In this document: piece after piece, positions 1 to 14,972 of the stretch | Layout of the letters: each line of letters begins with the position of its first letter | How positions within the stretch are numbered: position 1 is the stretch's first letter | Source of the DNA: Planctomyces sp. | GTDB lineage: Bacteria > Planctomycetota > Planctomycetia > Planctomycetales > Planctomycetaceae | Direction: 5' to 3' | Length of the DNA stretch: 32,532 nt | NCBI GenBank assembly: GCA_005791255.1 | Contig: SXXK01000195.1 | Location: forward strand, 1 to 32,532 | Program-made: the position numbers and the translations under genes | Notes under the pieces: generated by a model | Seen by the model: the letters and a program-made list of their open reading frames with translations, nothing else | What the model was told of the DNA's origin: nothing | Databases searched by the model: none

Positions 1-213
1 CAGATGTTCCGCAGCACCTTCGCTCGCACCATCATCGAAATGGCCATGGTCCAGCTCAGCCTGCTGGAAAATCTCTCCGCCATCAGCGACCTGCTCTCCG
101 GTCGACTCCCCACGCTGCCCGAACAGACCTCCGCAGCAGCCCCCGGGACACCACCATCCCAGCCCCCAGGCACGACGCCCGCCACCGCCGAAAAAAAAAA
201 GCCTCAGAGCTGA
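1..213 (+). CDS. dnaX: DNA polymerase III subunit gamma/tau (DnaX), 3' part, zero-frame (short) form
   Basis: This is the end of the clamp-loader ATPase subunit, whose N-terminal ATPase lies outside the window. The visible part resembles the helical clamp-loader collar region (FARTIIEMAMVQLSLLENL), followed by a Pro/Ala-rich linker. The zero frame reaches an A10 tract at 191-200 and stops four codons later at TGA 211-213. The frame one base back is open from there to 881 and encodes a tau-like C-terminal domain, so this stop probably defines the short gamma-like product. The gene is followed by ybaB and recR, the classical dnaX-ybaB-recR order, which supports the identification. Partial at the left edge; the start is not visible. 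A homopolymer miscount in the A tract cannot be excluded and would merge this with the next entry. Confidence 0.82.
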   Translation, partial: QMFRSTFARTIIEMAMVQLSLLENLSAISDLLSGRLPTLPEQTSAAAPGTPPSQPPGTTPATAEKKKPQS

Positions 214-220
214 CTCCTGA
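191..220 (+). promoter_or_regulatory. Candidate programmed -1 frameshift / slippage site in dnaX
   Basis: Ten consecutive A residues (191-200) are followed by G. In the zero frame the codons are GAA AAA AAA AAG, so positions 195-201 form the heptamer A-AAA-AAG, the same slippery heptamer used in E. coli dnaX. The zero-frame TGA follows at 211-213. A weak complementarity (TCAG 204-207 with CTGA 217-220) is the only downstream hairpin seen, and no clear upstream Shine-Dalgarno-like stimulator is visible. The run is also long enough for RNA polymerase slippage, as known for Thermus dnaX. An uncorrected sequencing indel is the main alternative. Confidence 0.55.
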
Positions 221-881
221 AAATTCGGAACACCACACACCCGAAACCACGGCAGTCGCTGAAACTCCGGTTCCCGCCACACCCGCTCCACCGGCCCCGG
301 CACTCGAACTCTCCGACAGCACACTCCCACAAATCATGCAGCTCCTGCTGAAATCCGCAAAACTCACAGCCGTAGCCGGACTTCGCATGGCACGCTCACT
401 GCAGCTCGCCGGACCGGCACGAGTCGAGTTTGTGCTGCCCGCTGGAGCTGAATTCGCCCGCAAAGCCCTCGACTCCGCAGAAAATCGCTCCTGGGTCGAA
501 TCGGAAATCCTGAGACTCACCGGAAAAACCGTGGCCGTCGGAATCCGCCTGGCACCGCCCGATCCCCCCGCCACACAGCCCCCCGAAACCGCCATCAATC
601 CCGGCACCACTCCAACCCAAAACAACAAAGCCGGCACTCAGGCCAGCCGGACACCCCCAAGCTCGCCCGCCGGAAAACCGCAGTCAGCCCCCGCCGGCAG
701 CCAGCGTCGCGAAACACGCCGCGAACCTGATGAACCACCTCAGTCAAACCTCATCGGCGAAGTTGACCCCCGCCGCGACGCCTATGTCTGCCACGTCATC
801 GAAACCTTTAACGCCACAGTGGTCCGCATCACGCACGCACCCGCCGCTCGCGGCACCAACAGCGATCCCGCATCACCGTAA
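201..881 (+). CDS. dnaX: DnaX tau-specific C-terminal extension, -1 frame relative to upstream dnaX
   Basis: This frame is open without a stop from the A10 tract to TAA 879-881. It reads as a Pro/Thr-rich linker, then a folded segment (about 318-560) with the pattern of the conserved DnaX C-terminal domain: a helical LPQIMQLLLKSAKL start, then VEFVLPAGAEFARKAL and a helix ending before TGKTVAVGIRL. A second Pro/Ser-rich, low-complexity linker follows (about 560-760). The tail DAYVCHVIETFNATVVRI could be the part that contacts the polymerase, but that is inference. The first internal ATG is at 336 with no convincing ribosome site, so independent translation is less likely than fusion to the upstream frame. 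The stop overlaps the ybaB ribosome-binding site, suggesting coupled translation. Confidence 0.72.
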   Translation, partial: ASELTPENSEHHTPETTAVAETPVPATPAPPAPALELSDSTLPQIMQLLLKSAKLTAVAGLRMARSLQLAGPARVEFVLPAGAEFARKALDSAENRSWVESEILRLTGKTVAVGIRLAPPDPPATQPPETAINPGTTPTQNNKAGTQASRTPPSSPAGKPQSAPAGSQRRETRREPDEPPQSNLIGEVDPRRDAYVCHVIETFNATVVRITHAPAARGTNSDPASP

Positions 882-3690: not shown

Positions 3691-5835
3691 TCACTGCCCC
3701 GGCAGCCACAACTGACCACCACCTGCAGCAGGAGCCTCCGCGGAGGAACCAGGCAACCACAATCCGCCACCAGACCCCGCACCACCCGCCAAACCGCCGT
3801 CCAGCTCCGACAACAAATCCGTCGCACCAACCGCCGTCAACTGATCTGCCAGCAGCTCACGCAGCTCCGGAACCTTCATCAAATACTGGTCACGGAAACG
3901 ATGCAGCAACGACTTCACTGCAGGATTCCGCACGTCGTCCAGCAAATACGACAAATGCCGAATGTCCAGCTCAAGGCGGATCCGGAACGCATCCGGACCT
4001 GTCACCAGACCACGCGCCCGGTCCAGCATGCTGCAGGCCAGCTCCAGATTGTTGGAAACCCGCGCCAGCGAGGCCCGCGTCTGACAGGCACTGACCGCTT
4101 CCGTCCAGTCCCCAAACTGGTTCTGCTCCAGAAGTCGGTCAAAACATCGCTCCGCCAGCCGCACATAACCCATCATCCCCAGACGACTGCCCAGCTCACG
4201 CAGATTCCCGGATGCCGTAGCCACGTCAATCCGCCCCAGAGACAGCGAATTGAATGCACCCAGATGAGCACTGCCGTCAAACGGAAACGCCGCTCGCGGA
4301 GGCAGCTGCAAACGCTCAAATGTCACCGACTCCGCCGGATCCATGTCGCGACGACGCAGCAGATCATGCAGCACCAAAACCGCAGCCGTCAGGCACCGAC
4401 GCAGCTCCGGAACACCGGCAGCCTCCAGCGGACTGCGATTGCCCAGCACTGCCAGTGGCTGACTCAGCCACACCTCAACACCCGCCGACATCCCCTCACC
4501 CAGCAACCGACGATACTCCAGCGACGACATCTCGTCCGGACGCACATGCCGCAACTCGAACGGCAGCAACATCGGAGGCTCCGATGACACACGCTCCCGA
4601 ACCTCCTCACCAGCAGACGTCACAATCAGGTCACCCAGCACCTCACGCAAAAACTGCAGCGATCGCTCCAGCAACGCTTCCGATGTCGTCACATCAATCC
4701 ACGGCGATGAGATGTCCGAAGCCGCTGCCGCCTCCGCATCCACCACATCAAACACATCCAGATCCGCCAGAGATTCCGGCAATGCACTCAAACCCGTGGT
4801 ACCCACCGGATCCTGCAGCAACACCACCTCCGACACATGATCCGTCCCCGGAAAATGCTCACAGTCCTCGTGATCGTGCGACTTCAAAAACCGCACATTC
4901 TTCGCGTCACGCAGACGAGAAACCAGCTCGGATACCGAACGCACCTGCAGCCGCGCCGTGACAACATAGACCCGCTCCTGACTCCACAGCTGGTCCACCA
5001 TCTGCGCCAGCGCCTCAGCGTCAGTCGCCTGCTCAGCGTCAGTCAGCAACGTCGCCGCATGATGCAGTGATGATGCACCCTCACGATCACGACCGTCCCA
5101 CAACTGACACAACCCCAGATTAAACCACACCGCACCTTCAGTCGGTAACTGGTCGGCCAAACGATTGTACAGAATCGACGCCGGTTCCCAGCAGCCCAGC
5201 AGACACAGCTTGCGAGCCCTCTGGTCCTGCAACACCACCTCGTCAGAACCGGCAATCGGCAGCAGACTCCACGTCGTCCTGCACATCGCCGGCAGATTGC
5301 GATCCCCCTCCACCGACATCAGACGCGACAGAACTGTCTGCTGAGTCTCCCCGCGAGATAACCGCAGAGACAGTGCCAGATGCTCACGACCCGCCAGAAT
5401 CGAACCCCGCTGCAGCATCTCCATCGCCACTCGATACGCCAGACCTGCCACCTTCTCAGGATACTGACGCGAAGAAATCTGAAAGGCACGGTGCAGCAAT
5501 CGACGAGTCGCCTCGAAACCCTCCCGCACCAGACGCAGCTCTGATACCAGCAGCAGCATCATCGGATGGTCCGGATGAGCCTTCAAAAAGTCGGCCCCCA
5601 CCGCCACCGCATCGTTGTGCCGACGCAGGTCCAGCAATACTCCCATCAGCTCACGAACCACCGATTCCTTGTCCGGAAACCTCTTCTGCAGAGTCCGCAG
5701 CAGCTCCAGAGCCACCTCCGGCTGGTTCTCACGCAGAGTACTGGCTCGGGATAACTCGGGCAGCACGTCCTGACAACAAAACTTCAGCTTCTTACCGCTG
5801 CCACAGATGCACAATGCGTATGAGTCAAGAGCCAT
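3691..5835 (-). CDS. SEC-C motif / TPR-like helical repeat protein with tandem LWLPG tail
   Basis: The 714-residue protein begins with an SEC-C zinc-binding motif (C9, C11, C20, C21: CICGSGKKLKFCC), which in SecA binds SecB and ribosomes. The rest is mostly helical, with TPR-like repeats near residues 25-130 (EVALELLRTLQKRFPDK, then RRHNDAVAVGADFLKAHPDHP) and again near 200-260 (PASILYNRLADQLPTEGAVWFNLGLCQL). The middle and C-terminal halves are unassigned. The final 30 residues carry GLWLPG and QLWLPGQ in Gly-rich sequence, a tandem short motif. ATG 5835 was chosen because it places the SEC-C motif right at the N-terminus; a GTG at 5877 would add 14 residues. It lies just upstream of the aminotransferase and probably shares its operon. 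Likely a cytoplasmic adaptor; the partner is unknown. Confidence 0.82.
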   Translation of the reverse strand: MALDSYALCICGSGKKLKFCCQDVLPELSRASTLRENQPEVALELLRTLQKRFPDKESVVRELMGVLLDLRRHNDAVAVGADFLKAHPDHPMMLLLVSELRLVREGFEATRRLLHRAFQISSRQYPEKVAGLAYRVAMEMLQRGSILAGREHLALSLRLSRGETQQTVLSRLMSVEGDRNLPAMCRTTWSLLPIAGSDEVVLQDQRARKLCLLGCWEPASILYNRLADQLPTEGAVWFNLGLCQLWDGRDREGASSLHHAATLLTDAEQATDAEALAQMVDQLWSQERVYVVTARLQVRSVSELVSRLRDAKNVRFLKSHDHEDCEHFPGTDHVSEVVLLQDPVGTTGLSALPESLADLDVFDVVDAEAAAASDISSPWIDVTTSEALLERSLQFLREVLGDLIVTSAGEEVRERVSSEPPMLLPFELRHVRPDEMSSLEYRRLLGEGMSAGVEVWLSQPLAVLGNRSPLEAAGVPELRRCLTAAVLVLHDLLRRRDMDPAESVTFERLQLPPRAAFPFDGSAHLGAFNSLSLGRIDVATASGNLRELGSRLGMMGYVRLAERCFDRLLEQNQFGDWTEAVSACQTRASLARVSNNLELACSMLDRARGLVTGPDAFRIRLELDIRHLSYLLDDVRNPAVKSLLHRFRDQYLMKVPELRELLADQLTAVGATDLLSELDGGLAGGAGSGGGLWLPGSSAEAPAAGGGQLWLPGQ

Positions 5836-6092
5836 ACTTCCCGGTTCCCGTTTCCTGAACGTGTTTTCTGAAATCACCGGCTGATCCGGTGCTGTTGTTG
5901 CAATTCGACTGCTGTTTCATCGTGATTTCATGCGTCGCCAATGCCGAGACAGGCGCGCCGCAGGTGAGAAATCTAGCAGAAGCGGGGCGAATGTGGCAGT
6001 CCCAGCAGCCCCGCGTTCTCAGAAGAAGTGCGGAAAGCAAAACCCCCGCGCACCTGCACCAATACCGCAATCCGCGAATTTCGCCGTTCCTC
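5836..6092. other. Spacer between BRCT-TPR and SEC-C genes
   Basis: A 257-base spacer. It includes the GTG (5877) alternative start of the SEC-C gene. No promoter or terminator with a clear stem or T tract was seen. Read-through from the BRCT-TPR gene and a separate promoter are both possible. Confidence 0.3.
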
Positions 6093-7559
6093 TCAGTCCA
6101 ACAGCGATTCCAACGGCAATCCCGCTCCCGCCACACATCCCCCACCGATACCAGACTCCAGACCACCGGCTCGCATCCGCGCGTGCTCAGACCACGGGCC
6201 GCGACTGTCAAACTGCAGATACTGACGCCAGTATTCCACCGCCTCAGACTCCCGACCCAGACGGTCCAGCAACTGCGCAAAACTCAGTAACACGTCCGGA
6301 TTCGAAGGATGAATCGCCAGCGCAGCCCGCAATGACTCCTCCGCCGCCTCAAACTCCTCCAGCTCCGCCTGCAGACAACCCAACTGCGACCAGGCTTCAA
6401 TGAACTCAGGAGCCCACTCGATGGCACAGTAATAACGCTCCACCGCCGCCTCCAGCCGACCACCCCGATACAACGCATCCGCCAAATGAAAATTCACGTC
6501 CGCAGGATCCGGCTGCAGCGGCTCTTCACCACCACCCCAGCCCCCCGCACGCCGCACACCCAAACCACCCGACGCGCTGCCCAGTAAACACAGGGAACGC
6601 CGAAATACCGTTACCGCCTGCTCAAACTCCCCGCTCTCACTCAAACGACACCCCTCGTGAAACCACTCCTCCGCCGTCCACGGCTCCGACTCCGATCGCA
6701 CGCCACCCGCCAAACCCGCAAATGACAACACCCCGCCCTCAGCAGCACCCGCCGGATCCCCCGCCCACACACACTCGCCATGCACACCACCAGAGCTGCC
6801 CAATTCACCACCCGACAGCACCGCCGGCAGACCGGATCCACCCTCAAAATCCAGCAGACGCTGGCCCGTGCGAGGATTCAAAACGCCACGCTCGTCCCGC
6901 AGCAGTATCTGATCGTCATGCACCAGCAGATTCAGCTGCGCCAGTGAACGATCCGTCCCCGCCAGCACCCGACTCAGCTCGCACAGACTCCGCTCAATCA
7001 CCTCCGCCGAAACTCCCTCACCCAGCAAACCCGCCAGACGACGCGCTCCCGCAGCCTCCCGATAGTCAAACCACGGCAATCGCCCCACTGTCCGCACCGG
7101 ACGCAACAGACCCAGTCGAGCCCACCGGCGAATCAAACGCACAGGGACGTTCAGCATCCGACTGAGCATCGCCGGAGTATGCGCGCGGCGAATCTCGTCC
7201 CGACGCTCATCCAAACCCAGCATCTGCAGCCAGTCAGACTCCGCCACGATCCGGATCCCCGCACCCTCCGCCACCAGCTGCAATGCCTGCCGCAGCTTCA
7301 CCGAAGCTCGACCGTCGTCCTCCAGCGCCCAACCCTCCTCACCAATCACCAGCAGTGTCGTCCCCTGACTCAGCGCCTGCACACCTCGACCACCCGCCCG
7401 CTCCACCAGCTCCAAAGCTGCCTTGTGAGTCATCGAGGCCAGTGTCCCCGTAAAGGACACCACCTGCCCCGACAGCACACGCTGAACCACCACTTCTGTT
7501 GCTGCACTCAGGTTCACGATTTTGCCCGCTTCGCCGATCCCATCCCGCGGAATTTCCAT
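6093..7559 (-). CDS. BRCT domain - MerR-like HTH - TPR fusion protein
   Basis: This 488-residue protein joins three modules. Residues about 30-112 form a BRCT domain like that of DNA ligase or RFC1 (VVSFTGTLASMTHKAALELVERAGG, then TTLLVIGEEGW). Residues about 127-172 look like a MerR-type winged helix (TPAMLSRMLNVPVRLIRRWARLGLLRP, then WFDYREAAGARRLAGLL). Residues about 295-455 contain TPR units (AEEWFHEGCRLSESGEFEQAVTVFRRSL; VNFHLADALYRGGRLEAAVERYYCAIEWAP). A Gly-rich linker separates the HTH part from the repeats. ATG 7559 was preferred over an in-frame TTG at 7571. It is divergent from glyA across about 147 bases. Function unknown; a phospho-peptide- or DNA-end-responsive regulator is only a guess. 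It may be the first gene of the minus-strand cluster, although 257 bases separate it from the SEC-C gene. Confidence 0.85.
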   Translation of the reverse strand: MEIPRDGIGEAGKIVNLSAATEVVVQRVLSGQVVSFTGTLASMTHKAALELVERAGGRGVQALSQGTTLLVIGEEGWALEDDGRASVKLRQALQLVAEGAGIRIVAESDWLQMLGLDERRDEIRRAHTPAMLSRMLNVPVRLIRRWARLGLLRPVRTVGRLPWFDYREAAGARRLAGLLGEGVSAEVIERSLCELSRVLAGTDRSLAQLNLLVHDDQILLRDERGVLNPRTGQRLLDFEGGSGLPAVLSGGELGSSGGVHGECVWAGDPAGAAEGGVLSFAGLAGGVRSESEPWTAEEWFHEGCRLSESGEFEQAVTVFRRSLCLLGSASGGLGVRRAGGWGGGEEPLQPDPADVNFHLADALYRGGRLEAAVERYYCAIEWAPEFIEAWSQLGCLQAELEEFEAAEESLRAALAIHPSNPDVLLSFAQLLDRLGRESEAVEYWRQYLQFDSRGPWSEHARMRAGGLESGIGGGCVAGAGLPLESLLD

Positions 7560-7706
7560 ACCCCCAATCAACGAAGATATCGTGACCGCAGGGCAAAAGG
7601 TAGCATCCTCGAGCAGTCAACGGGGTAAAGACTCAGGGTTGCCTTACCAACGCCGGCAAAACTTACCGCCGCTGCCTTCCAGAACACAGACAGGACATCT
7701 GTACAT

Positions 7707-10954: not shown

Positions 10955-13900
10955 TCATTCACCCCCCGACCGAATCAGTTTCGCCAGATCCTGAGTCGAC
11001 AAACGACTGGCCGCATCCGTCCCGCTCAACACCCCGTCCACCAGATCCCGCTTCTCCTCGTGCAGCGACAATATCTGCTCCTCCACCGTCTCCTTCGCAA
11101 TCAGCCGATATACCACCACCGCACGCTCCTGACCCATCCGATGAGCCCGGTCCGTCGCCTGATCCTCCACCGCCGGATTCCACCACGGATCCATGTGAAT
11201 CACATAATCCGCCGCCGTCAGATTCAACCCCGTGCCCCCCGCCTTCAGCGAAATCAGAAAGACATCCCCCACACCGCCCTGAAATGACTCCACCAGCTCC
11301 TGACGACGGCCCGCCGGAGTCGATCCGTCCAGATACTGATACGTCACTCCCGCGTCCTCACACTCCCGACGAATCAGCTCCAGATGCGATGTGAACTGAC
11401 TGAACACCAGCGCCCGATGACCACGCTCCTTCAACTCCAGCAGCTTCTCTCGCAATAACTGCAGCTTCGACGAGCCCTGACTCCAGGCCCCGTCCACCAG
11501 CTTCACATGACACGCCAACTGCCGCAATCGCAATAACAAAGCCAGCACCTGCAATCGCTGCTCATTCCCCAGTCCTCCGGATCCCTGTTTCCTGTCGCCA
11601 CCCCCGCCACCCCCGCCACTCCCCGCTCCCTCCGCTCCCGCCGCCGCACCACCGTCCGATAACTCGCCCAGCTTCGCCATCGCCGAACGCCGCGCCTGCT
11701 CGTAACGCTCACGCTCCGCCGCCGACAACTCCACCAGCAAATTCACCTCCGTCCGCTCCGGCAGCTCCAGCAGCACATCCCGCTTCGCCCGACGCAGCAG
11801 AAACGGCGCAATCACCCGCGCCAAAGCCTCGCGACGCTCTCCACTCCCCTCACGCTCTATCGGCTGCGCAAAACGCCGCCGAAACTGCTCCCACGCACCC
11901 AGCACACCCGGAGCCACCACGTGGAAAATACTCCACAATTCCCCCAGATGGTTTTCCATCGGAGTCCCCGTCAGGGCCACCCGCCAGTCCGCCCGCAACT
12001 GCCGCACCGCCACCGCCGTCTTGCTGTTGCTGTTCTTCACGTTCTGAGCTTCGTCCAGCACCAGCGTGTGCCACTCCCGACGCTCCAGACGCTCCACATC
12101 ACGCAGCGCCAGCCCATAACTGCAGATCACCACGTCGCCAGCACCCACACCCTCCACCACCGATTCCCGATCCGCTTCCCGATACAACACCACGCGCAAC
12201 CCCGGAGCAAAACGCTCACACTCCCGCTGCCAGTTGAAGCCGAGAGACGTCGGAGCAATGATCAGGGCCGGCCCGTCGGCCGCTCGAGCCACCAGCAGGG
12301 CCAGCGTCTGCACCGTCTTCCCCAAACCCATGTCGTCCGCCAGCACACACCCAATCCCCCACGCCGCCAGCCGACTCAGCCAGCGATATCCCTGCAGCTG
12401 ATAATCCCGCAGCTCACCCCGAAATCCTCCAGGCAACTCCGCATCCAGCTCCCGCGAATCCCGCAATCGCTGCAGACACTGCTGCCACTGCCGATCCATG
12501 CCCACCGCCACACTCGCCGACTCCAGCTCCGCCACCACAGGCGCCGCCGCCGGATCCAGCTGCAGCCCCCCACGCACCTCCAGACTCACATCGTGCAATC
12601 GACGCAGCATCCGCAGAATCTCACCCTCCACCAGCGCCCACTGACCCGGCAAAACCTCAATCAATCCGTTCACCGGCTCATTCGACAACCCCGGCAACAC
12701 CTCCCGCAATGACAACTCACGACTGCCAAACTGCACCACACCGTCCAGTCCAAACCAGTCCCGCTTGCGCTGCACCCGCACCTGCACATTCTGCGCCGTC
12801 ATCCGGCCCAGCAGCTCCATCCGCACCGTCGATTTCCGATGCCATAACACACGCAGCACGCCCGCACCATGCAGCGCAGCACTCGACTGCACAATCCGCT
12901 GCACCTCCCCGGCATCCACATGCCGCCACACCCAATCCCGCAGCACCCGACCACCACTCAATCCCAGCTCCACCGAAAGCCGCTGAGCCTCTCCCTCCTC
13001 CCACTCCAGATCTCGCAACAAAACACTGCCAGCCTCGTCCCCGCTGCCCGCACCGTCTCCCCCCGTCGTCAGCCGCACCCGCCGGGAACCCGCACCCGGG
13101 AAATGCAGATTGCCACCCGAGTCCGCCAGACACAAGGTACTGTCCAGTTCTCCCCCCTCACGCATCTGCAGCAACAGCGCCGGCTGCAATCGCACAGGAC
13201 GCTCCTCACCACCCTCCGGCAAATGCACATCCATCCACTTCTGCGCTTCATGCACCACATCCCACAACACATCCTGCTCACCCTCACCAAAAATCACACC
13301 CTCCCCACCCACACGCCGAAACAAACCCGGCCAGGCACCCTCCAGACGCACGACCGCCACCCGCAGCCGCTGCAGATTCACCCCCAGCAGGCCACCGTCC
13401 AGCTCATACAACCGAATCCCGCCCTCGTCCCCGCTCTCCCCCAAAAAACGACTCAGTGATGTCGTCAGCCGTAACCCCTCCGCCACAGACTCCACCCACA
13501 GCTCCGGCTTCAGTCGCTCCAAAGCCGCCGGCAGCCGGTTCACCTCCAGCTGACCCGTCCCCGCCAGCAACTCCAGCGCCGGTCGCAGAACCGTCCGCGG
13601 AGTCCTCCAGAAAGTCACCGGAAACATCTGCTGCAACCTGCGGTCAACCTCAGACAAATCTTCAGCAGACTGCCCTTGAAACGTCTCCATCAGCAACTCC
13701 CGATCCGCCACCCACCGCCGCCCCTTCTCCACATACAGCACCGGCCGCAAATCCGGCACCCGCTCCAAATCCGACATACTCACCGTCAGATTCCAGCCAA
13801 AACGCACCCGCGGTTTGTCCACAACGGAAAAGCTCTCAGGAGTCTCCAAAGGAGCAGACTCACGTGACTTCTGCGCCAATGTCCGCAAATGCTCCAGAAA

Positions 13901-14539
13901 TCGCTTCCGCTCACGCTCCGCCACCGTCTGACCATACACCGCCACCTCAAACTCCGAACCGGCCGTCTTCAGCTGATAGTCCAATGCCGCCGCCAGACAT
14001 CCCAGATGCTGACACACACGATCCGAACCACAACTGCACAATGTCAGCGTCCGCCCGCTCCGCCGCTCAAACAACAGCCCGCAAACAAACGTCTCAGCCC
14101 CCTCACCCACCTGACCCACCGCCGCACAGTTCGGATCAACCTCCCGCAGACGCACCCCCTGGCGCTGACGAAACAGCGTCCAACTCCCACTGCCCGCACT
14201 CCGCCCCGCACGTGACTGCTCACTCATCCGCGCCAACACCTGACGCCAGACTTCCAAACGCTCCCGACCAGCCGGCAACACATCCGCATCACTCACCTGT
14301 GCCAACTGCTTCAATGTCTTCAGCACCGCCCGCGGATCCAGCAGCCGCCCCGCTCCAGACTCCCCCGCCGCATCCGACTTGCCCGCCACTCCTGACTTGC
14401 CACCAGCAGACTTGCCCCCGGCATCCGGCACCGGCGGCCGGCCAGCAGCCCCCGCCTCCGTCGCCTTCAGGTCCTCAGCCAGTCCCCATGATGCGCCATC
14501 CGCCTTTACCTGCTTCCGTTTCCTGCCCTCGCTCGCCAT
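10955..14539 (-). CDS. SNF2-family DEAD/DEAH-like helicase with SWIM zinc finger
   Basis: This 1194-residue protein has a Lys/Gly/Ser-rich N-terminus (about 40-65), a SWIM zinc finger (CSCGSDRVCQH, about 168-178), a long middle region of the bacterial SNF2 type, and a full two-lobed motor. Motor motifs are DDMGLGKT (about 736), DEAQ in place of DEAH (about 828, VLDEAQNVKN), LTGTPMENHLGELWSIF, and motif VI ATDRAHRMGQ (about 1128). A Gly-rich insert (GGGGGGG after GAGS) lies between the lobes. Such proteins are ATP-driven DNA translocases or remodellers; the target is unknown. ATG 14539 (MASEGRKRK) was chosen; the frame runs on to 14704 but the extra 55 residues are unlike a protein N-terminus. 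The antisense strand carries long Pro-rich open frames that are compositional shadows. Confidence 0.93.
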   Translation of the reverse strand: MASEGRKRKQVKADGASWGLAEDLKATEAGAAGRPPVPDAGGKSAGGKSGVAGKSDAAGESGAGRLLDPRAVLKTLKQLAQVSDADVLPAGRERLEVWRQVLARMSEQSRAGRSAGSGSWTLFRQRQGVRLREVDPNCAAVGQVGEGAETFVCGLLFERRSGRTLTLCSCGSDRVCQHLGCLAAALDYQLKTAGSEFEVAVYGQTVAERERKRFLEHLRTLAQKSRESAPLETPESFSVVDKPRVRFGWNLTVSMSDLERVPDLRPVLYVEKGRRWVADRELLMETFQGQSAEDLSEVDRRLQQMFPVTFWRTPRTVLRPALELLAGTGQLEVNRLPAALERLKPELWVESVAEGLRLTTSLSRFLGESGDEGGIRLYELDGGLLGVNLQRLRVAVVRLEGAWPGLFRRVGGEGVIFGEGEQDVLWDVVHEAQKWMDVHLPEGGEERPVRLQPALLLQMREGGELDSTLCLADSGGNLHFPGAGSRRVRLTTGGDGAGSGDEAGSVLLRDLEWEEGEAQRLSVELGLSGGRVLRDWVWRHVDAGEVQRIVQSSAALHGAGVLRVLWHRKSTVRMELLGRMTAQNVQVRVQRKRDWFGLDGVVQFGSRELSLREVLPGLSNEPVNGLIEVLPGQWALVEGEILRMLRRLHDVSLEVRGGLQLDPAAAPVVAELESASVAVGMDRQWQQCLQRLRDSRELDAELPGGFRGELRDYQLQGYRWLSRLAAWGIGCVLADDMGLGKTVQTLALLVARAADGPALIIAPTSLGFNWQRECERFAPGLRVVLYREADRESVVEGVGAGDVVICSYGLALRDVERLERREWHTLVLDEAQNVKNSNSKTAVAVRQLRADWRVALTGTPMENHLGELWSIFHVVAPGVLGAWEQFRRRFAQPIEREGSGERREALARVIAPFLLRRAKRDVLLELPERTEVNLLVELSAAERERYEQARRSAMAKLGELSDGGAAAGAEGAGSGGGGGGGDRKQGSGGLGNEQRLQVLALLLRLRQLACHVKLVDGAWSQGSSKLQLLREKLLELKERGHRALVFSQFTSHLELIRRECEDAGVTYQYLDGSTPAGRRQELVESFQGGVGDVFLISLKAGGTGLNLTAADYVIHMDPWWNPAVEDQATDRAHRMGQERAVVVYRLIAKETVEEQILSLHEEKRDLVDGVLSGTDAASRLSTQDLAKLIRSGGE

Positions 14540-14972
14540 CGCACTCACAATCCCGCAAAAAACAGGCCCGCTCAATACTCCAGCCGCATCTTCCCAAACA
14601 CCCCGCGAACGGCAACCCACCACCCACCCAACTTCCCAAAATCTCCCGCCACACTGACCAAACAACGTCAACACTACGCCCCTCGCCCACAAACCCGCAA
14701 CCACACACTCTCACAGGATTCTTGTCGTTCGCCGATCCATCCCACGCCCAGCCACCTCACCACCGCCAATACATCAGGACACACCACCAAATGCGCTCCG
14801 CACTGTTTATTTGCCCCGACAATTCTCTTCCCCACCCCGCTGTCTGCAACGCCCCCTCAAGACTATAATATCGCCGCAACCGAAGCAGCCTGCAGCCCCG
14901 CAGCAGCCCTGCAGCACTCACACCCGCGGACTTCCGTCCGCGGCTCGCCAGACTGAAAACTGAAAACTCCCA
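14540..14972. other. Divergent intergenic region between helicase and serine hydrolase
   Basis: No gene was recognised in these 433 bases. TATAAT at 14864-14869 could be a -10 box for the + strand gene, but no convincing -35 lies at the right distance. Two copies of the heptamer TGAAAAC (14954-14967) sit directly before the hydrolase start codon, where a Shine-Dalgarno sequence would be expected; none is obvious. Confidence 0.4.

Follow-up and report, generated by a model that had tools for sequence, protein, structure and literature searches.

A planctomycete dnaX gene with the tau C-terminal part in the −1 frame behind an A10 tract, and similar flipped layouts in its genus and class

The window, that is the whole stretch of 32,532 nt analysed (Planctomyces sp., contig SXXK01000195.1), opens inside dnaX. 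Base 1 is the start of the contig, and the N-terminal two-thirds of the gene are absent. The remaining part of the gene and its downstream neighbours are laid out as follows.

1–213, + strand: 3′ end of the dnaX zero frame (end of domain III and linker), predicted to give a short gamma-like product; from translation and identity to a relative's DnaX
191–200, + strand: A10 tract, putative slippage site, holding A AAA AAG in the zero frame; from the sequence, with A9–A12 in 83/95 family dnaX genes
211–213, + strand: TGA, zero-frame stop of the predicted short form; from the sequence
201–881, + strand: −1-frame part of the gene (226 codons, then TAA), comprising the linker and C-terminal region specific to tau; from translation and purifying selection in the clade
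300–551, + strand: predicted folded segment within the C-terminal region of tau; from an AlphaFold2 model
744–833, + strand: stretch of conserved C-terminal sequence, SNLIGEVDPRRDAYVCHVIETFNATVVRIT, in which two columns, D and F, are invariant; from an alignment of 37 sequences
894–1250, + strand: ebfC (YbaB/EbfC family), downstream neighbour; PF02575 at E 2.7e-20
1300–1932, + strand: recR, downstream neighbour; PF13662, PF21176 and PF02132

The translation of positions 1–105 is 91 % identical to residues 343–377 of the DnaX of a relative, the C-terminal region in the −1 frame is common to the DnaX proteins of relatives in alignment, and ebfC and recR follow downstream, a usual dnaX neighbourhood. 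Thus, the gene is identified as dnaX. Pfam gave no match for either of the two window pieces of dnaX; in other genomes, PF12169 and the ATPase domains are matched by the G010 zero-frame part and by the complete G004 protein. No strong DnaX match was found on the other contigs of the whole assembly, which is 88 % complete. The best match elsewhere in the genome, on contig C74, has 30 % identity to the relative's DnaX and is probably the delta′ subunit; weaker matches lie on contigs C222 and C441. The window also holds several ORFs on the − strand: a 1249-codon SNF2-family helicase-like protein (10958–14704; PF00176 from residue 768, PF00271) whose long region ahead of the motor has no Pfam match, a 492-codon protein with a MerR-type stretch and TPR repeats (6096–7571), and a 728-codon ORF for which Pfam gave nothing at E 1e-5 (3694–5877).

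Across the run the zero frame reads GAA AAA AAA AAG CCT CAG AGC TGA. It covers 70 codons, which comprise the last part of domain III followed by a linker, and closes at a TGA that is the fourth codon after the AAG ending the A10. From base 3 onwards the −1 frame has no stop, and it continues for 226 codons past the A10 to a TAA at 879–881; the +1 frame meets a stop 5 codons past the run. The frameshift site of Escherichia coli dnaX likewise lies after domain III. The original prediction of an A10 tract containing A-AAA-AAG, a zero-frame stop four codons beyond it and an open −1 frame carrying a DnaX C-terminal part was borne out, with the tract read at 191–200, the stop at 211–213 and the −1 frame running to 881 through the region shared with relatives.

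In an AlphaFold2 model from the −1 part, residues 1–84 (positions 300–551) form a block with pLDDT 92–98 and a helix-helix-strand-strand-helix-helix-strand fold. In Foldseek searches with this model, ranks 1–2 were SirA and no tau match was found at E ≤ 0.001. The C-terminal domain of E. coli tau (2aya) appeared at rank 6 as a weak match (E 0.066), and chain E of the pol III complex entries 5fku and 5fkv, presumably tau, appeared at ranks 4 and 14.

The genus was sampled with 18 genomes. Seventeen dnaX loci were read (16 including the window, plus G014), and in the remaining genome, G016, no dnaX match was found. The zero frame is short in three congeners: the window genome (G000) with A10, G010 with A11 and G007 with A12. 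Genes in which the DNA-encoded frame stops early and the C-terminal part lies in another frame are referred to here as flipped. Thirteen other congeners carry GAA AAA AAA AAC and a long zero frame, and G014 is unflipped too; in all unflipped loci read (14/14) the A10 is in frame. Between the GAA and a conserved TGA the flipped trio is one base shorter than four aligned sisters. A tree of 17 taxa was built from the N-terminal part of DnaX, EbfC (present in 16) and RecR (present in 9), the share of the window genome in the DnaX part being 36 codons only. This tree separates the trio from the 14 remaining congeners, with an ultrafast bootstrap support of 100 %.

Purifying selection acts on the −1 part, which evolves as a protein. 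Pairwise pN/pS for this part is 0.28 (G000–G010), 0.37 (G000–G007) and 0.35 (G010–G007), and two close pairs of unflipped genes give 0.39 and 0.43 in the same region, dS ranging from 0.67 to 1.8 over these pairs. In wider comparisons, two pairs, one of which sets a flipped against an unflipped gene, give 0.54; synonymous change nears saturation in these wider pairs, which makes the ratios rough.

A homopolymer error made in assembly or sequencing, with a single frame as the true gene, would draw on the fact that the run lies within draft contigs and that G007 and G010 are metagenome-assembled genomes (uncultured Planctomycetaceae). There is also a precedent in Deinococcus. In the excerpted source, a dnaX annotated there as two ORFs is a single ORF in the sequence of another strain, a single T apart, and such a one-base difference between two dnaX sequences calls for caution with two-ORF layouts generally. 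However, three genomes with three different run lengths arrive at one net frame, one base shorter than their sisters, and every other congener read keeps its A10 in frame. Given that two congeners show the same break, that the trio forms a clade and that selection on the −1 part is purifying, an error of one assembly is very improbable.

Even less credible is a decayed or split gene, in which a recent frameshift would have cost the C-terminal part or left it to be made from an internal start. In the −1 frame an ATG at position 336 does start an ORF of 181 codons, but this ATG corresponds to residue 13 of the modelled domain, within the first helix (residues 9–19), and bases 3 to 335 of this frame contain no ATG, GTG or TTG. 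Selection in the −1 frame over the whole dS range above also speaks against decay. The pseudogene reading was dropped on account of that selection.

For a wider comparison, EbfC matches were obtained in 140 of the 170 genomes of the GTDB family (f1). The 95 family dnaX genes considered below are hand-picked loci with EbfC hits, plus G014, and are a non-random selection; 7 of 102 family loci were excluded as being without the DnaX end, and the stretches of G184, G078, G107 and G128, which leave the contig in the zero frame, are uncounted. A run of A9–A12 is located in the linker after domain III in 83 of the 95 genes (49 A10, 32 A9, one A11 and one A12), mostly no more than 200 bases past the end of the conserved N-terminal part and up to 451 bases past it. 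Among the 92 unflipped genes the run is present in 80, against 0.61 expected from codon shuffling. The long form is the zero frame in 92/95, and within the family only the window trio is flipped.

Stops close to the run are similarly frequent. Both frames other than that of tau stop within 5 codons in 61/83 run-bearing genes, compared with 3.3 % of 10,106 other linker positions used as control, and within 8 codons in 71/83, compared with 7.4 %; early stops within 5 codons in both frames are missing in 22/83. Since the frequencies of the run and of the early stops are far above chance and control, the run with its nearby stops looks like a device that is kept up so that a short product is made as well, as described for Thermus dnaX. 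In the 5,583,264 assembled bases of the window genome an A10 occurs once per strand, and the window has a G+C content of 61 %. The other A10/T10 of the genome (L220, 1501–1510; G000:C160:3589–3598) is located between two ORFs and overlaps the TTG that is listed as start codon for the second ORF.

An A9 run is absent from 12 of the 95 family genes (L076, L091, L093, L115, L118, L124, L125, L130, L131, L133, L136 and L137). L115 has an A6 within a heptamer, and the other 11 have no A run over 5. With 12/95 genes lacking it, the slippage signal is not indispensable in family dnaX; these lineages may make tau alone, or the short form by another route.

The reversed logic first proposed for the window alone, with the zero frame giving the short form and a slip giving tau, is common to G010 and G007, and reading homologous dnaX genes recovered the A run in 83/95 and the −1 layout in the trio. 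Uninterrupted orthologues without a run had been named as evidence against the original prediction. Such genes do exist in the family (12/95), none of them in the genus, and uninterrupted genes with an A9 or A10 are far more numerous (80/95). Because the run is kept in these 80 uninterrupted genes, and as A10 in all 14 unflipped congeners read, the prediction is not overturned by them.

Flipped dnaX genes also occur in other families of the class. In a class screen, in which 376 of 397 genomes gave a DnaX match, places among the matches listed where the DnaX N-terminal part had a short open frame were picked and the DNA was then read. Five more flipped genomes, in two other families (f5 and f3), were found among the matches listed. 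In f5, G364 has an A11 with the C-terminal part in the +1 frame (genus mates G503 and G469 unflipped), G511 is flipped with an A9 (G524, G532, G420 and G422 unflipped), as is G519 (G468, G502 and G528 unflipped). In f3, G293 is flipped with an A10, and G355 (L231) is flipped with only an A8 at the junction. A profile of the C-terminal region of the window family, searched against 14 sequences with no filters, matched all 14 tails (five flipped, nine sisters), the weakest being G364 at 1e-6. PF12362 (DnaX C terminus) was below the cut-off in the G511 and G364 tails and was not found in the G519 tail.

Together with the trio, these bring the flipped genomes to eight and the separate flips to five or six, depending on whether the two f3 cases are one. 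The five single flips outside the genus could be homopolymer errors. DnaX matches were obtained in 129/139 f5 and 67/68 f3 genomes; the DNA was read in 23 f5 and 11 f3 genomes, partly chosen for short frames, and the rest were judged by open-frame length. The flip counts, be it the 3/95 in f1 or those in f5 and f3, are therefore counts within these selections and not rates. The f5 loci of G431, G282 and G471 have short open frames that leave the contig and are unsettled, several more f5 genomes have partial DnaX matches only, and G493 (f5) was read and is unflipped. In f3, G026 has a short frame near a contig end and was read once. A further f5 locus (G530; L182, G530:C318) has a zero frame that stops 25 codons past the N-terminal part, near the contig end and with no A run.

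It is likely that the window carries the end of a working dnaX whose linker holds a conserved slippage site, and that RNA polymerase slips on the A10 to yield both gamma and tau. Slippage during transcription would create a mixed mRNA pool. Messages with a faithful run, or with a run length that does not fit, would reach a stop three or five codons on and encode a short gamma-like clamp-loader subunit consisting of domains I–III. Those with one additional A, or a length fitting modulo 3, would join the frames and encode the complete tau, C-terminal domain included. Most relatives have tau in the frame written in the DNA, and there slippage would give the short form; in the ancestor of the clade, one net base would have been lost just after the run and the roles of the two products swapped. 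Slippage, its transcriptional level, two proteins in a given ratio and an ancestral event are all suggested by sequence comparison.

The short step needed could instead be taken by the ribosome, as a −1 frameshift on the A run like that of E. coli with the roles reversed, so that tau would be the frameshift product. The window tract ends in a zero-frame A AAA AAG, all three flipped congeners require a −1 step, and any run of at least nine A's by simple arithmetic includes an in-phase A AAA AAA heptamer. In excerpts of Atkins 2016, Chlorobium dnaX combines E. coli-like stimulators with reversed roles. However, in the two flipped sisters the run ends as A11-C and A12-T and no AAG closes it, and the same excerpts state that in E. 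coli a shift occurs far more readily on A AAA AAG than on A AAA AAA or A AAA AAC. A zero-frame A AAA AAG is present at just 5 of the 83 family sites, the window among them. Across the family sites the run is kept while the base that follows it varies; codon phase varies less often.

Likewise, no stimulators were apparent. There was no excess of downstream structure in five stretches folded, nor at the 83 family sites against 377 control windows (p 0.22), and the fold of the stretch taken from the window (z −1.39) was equalled by 19/200 shuffles. No upstream excess of Shine-Dalgarno words was found (3/83 sites, 43/377 control windows), and the 20 bases before the A10 of the window hold no Shine-Dalgarno-like word. 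Furthermore, flipped G364 requires a shift in the +1 direction. A tRNA-Lys with anticodon CTT is present in the genome; going by the excerpts of Atkins 2016, a second Lys tRNA is perhaps relevant to the use of polymerase slippage instead in Thermus. The tRNA argument is incomplete, since a tRNA-Lys with anticodon TTT was not found in the 88 %-complete assembly, where 2 of 24 tRNA hits were without an ARAGORN call. A ribosomal origin of tau is accordingly unlikely, and slippage by RNA polymerase, which the original prediction had offered as an option, appears to fit better and is favoured because of the conserved run length, the flips in both directions and the ribosomal stimulators not found. 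Flips in both directions are taken as a sign of transcriptional realignment in the excerpted text of Antonov 2013 (PMC3711429).

At the A9 of Thermus dnaX about half of the product is full length, according to the excerpts of Atkins 2016. With a similar output, a one-base change would merely reassign which class of mRNA makes which protein. For dnaX in the Planctomycetia as a whole, the balance tilts slightly towards selection that keeps the run and the stops and hardly the frame, with gamma and tau flipping repeatedly and both ways; flipped lineages may tune tau by way of a longer run (A10, A11, A12).

Recoding in dnaX has an established background (excerpts of PMC3711429, PMC5009743, PMC11219805, PMC1088944 and PMC3017870). 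The excerpts of Antonov 2013 (PMC3711429) describe two-ORF dnaX as a new type with 17 genes in 12 genera, a poly-A at the junction in 12/17 and an A10 in nine genes, propose transcriptional realignment, and include 2 Planctomycetes genomes in the set, though no planctomycete dnaX is named in them. As in that type, the gene has its C-terminal part in −1, an A run at the junction and tau as the predicted product of recoding. Specifically, the two frames overlap here, with the C-terminal part in −1 and an A10 at the junction, and the gene is conserved, with no sign of a pseudogene and tau as its presumed long product. Unlike in the excerpts on the 2013 set, the flip is here placed on a tree, within a genus of which the other members read are unflipped. 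Reversed dnaX roles are also mentioned in the excerpts of Atkins 2016. In an open paper library no paper was found whose title or abstract start treats planctomycete dnaX, and a planctomycete may be among the species of the 2013 set. The reversed layout has thus been known since 2013; repeated flipping is the addition.

Individual systems, again from excerpted sources, compare as follows. Thermus thermophilus dnaX, in which transcription slips at an A9, likewise has a run of at least nine A's late in the gene and stops nearby in the other frames; there, however, the DNA frame is that of tau and slippage leads to gamma, the reverse of the arrangement here. E. coli dnaX, with its ribosomal −1 shift at A AAA AAG, similarly makes two products from one gene, and the same heptamer is in the zero frame of the window. 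The product assignment is opposite, and a Shine-Dalgarno or stem-loop stimulator was not found in the window or in excess at the family sites. In Blochmannia vafer and B. floridanus (PMC3017870), a poly-A frame break in dnaX is thought to be corrected by transcriptional slippage, but that break lies downstream of the slippage site, in the tau-only region, and not at the gamma/tau junction.

Automatic annotation may label dnaX genes of this kind as truncated or frameshifted. In the window organism tau would presumably really be made, and slippage during copying then appears to be what gives an essential replication subunit the region that binds the polymerase. What deserves to be kept is the evolutionary result: a flip located on a tree within a genus and replicated in three genomes, together with the further flips in the class. 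These provide natural pairs within one genus that are one net base apart and have the encoded product swapped. Such pairs would let one ask whether the gamma : tau ratio is important, or just the presence of both.
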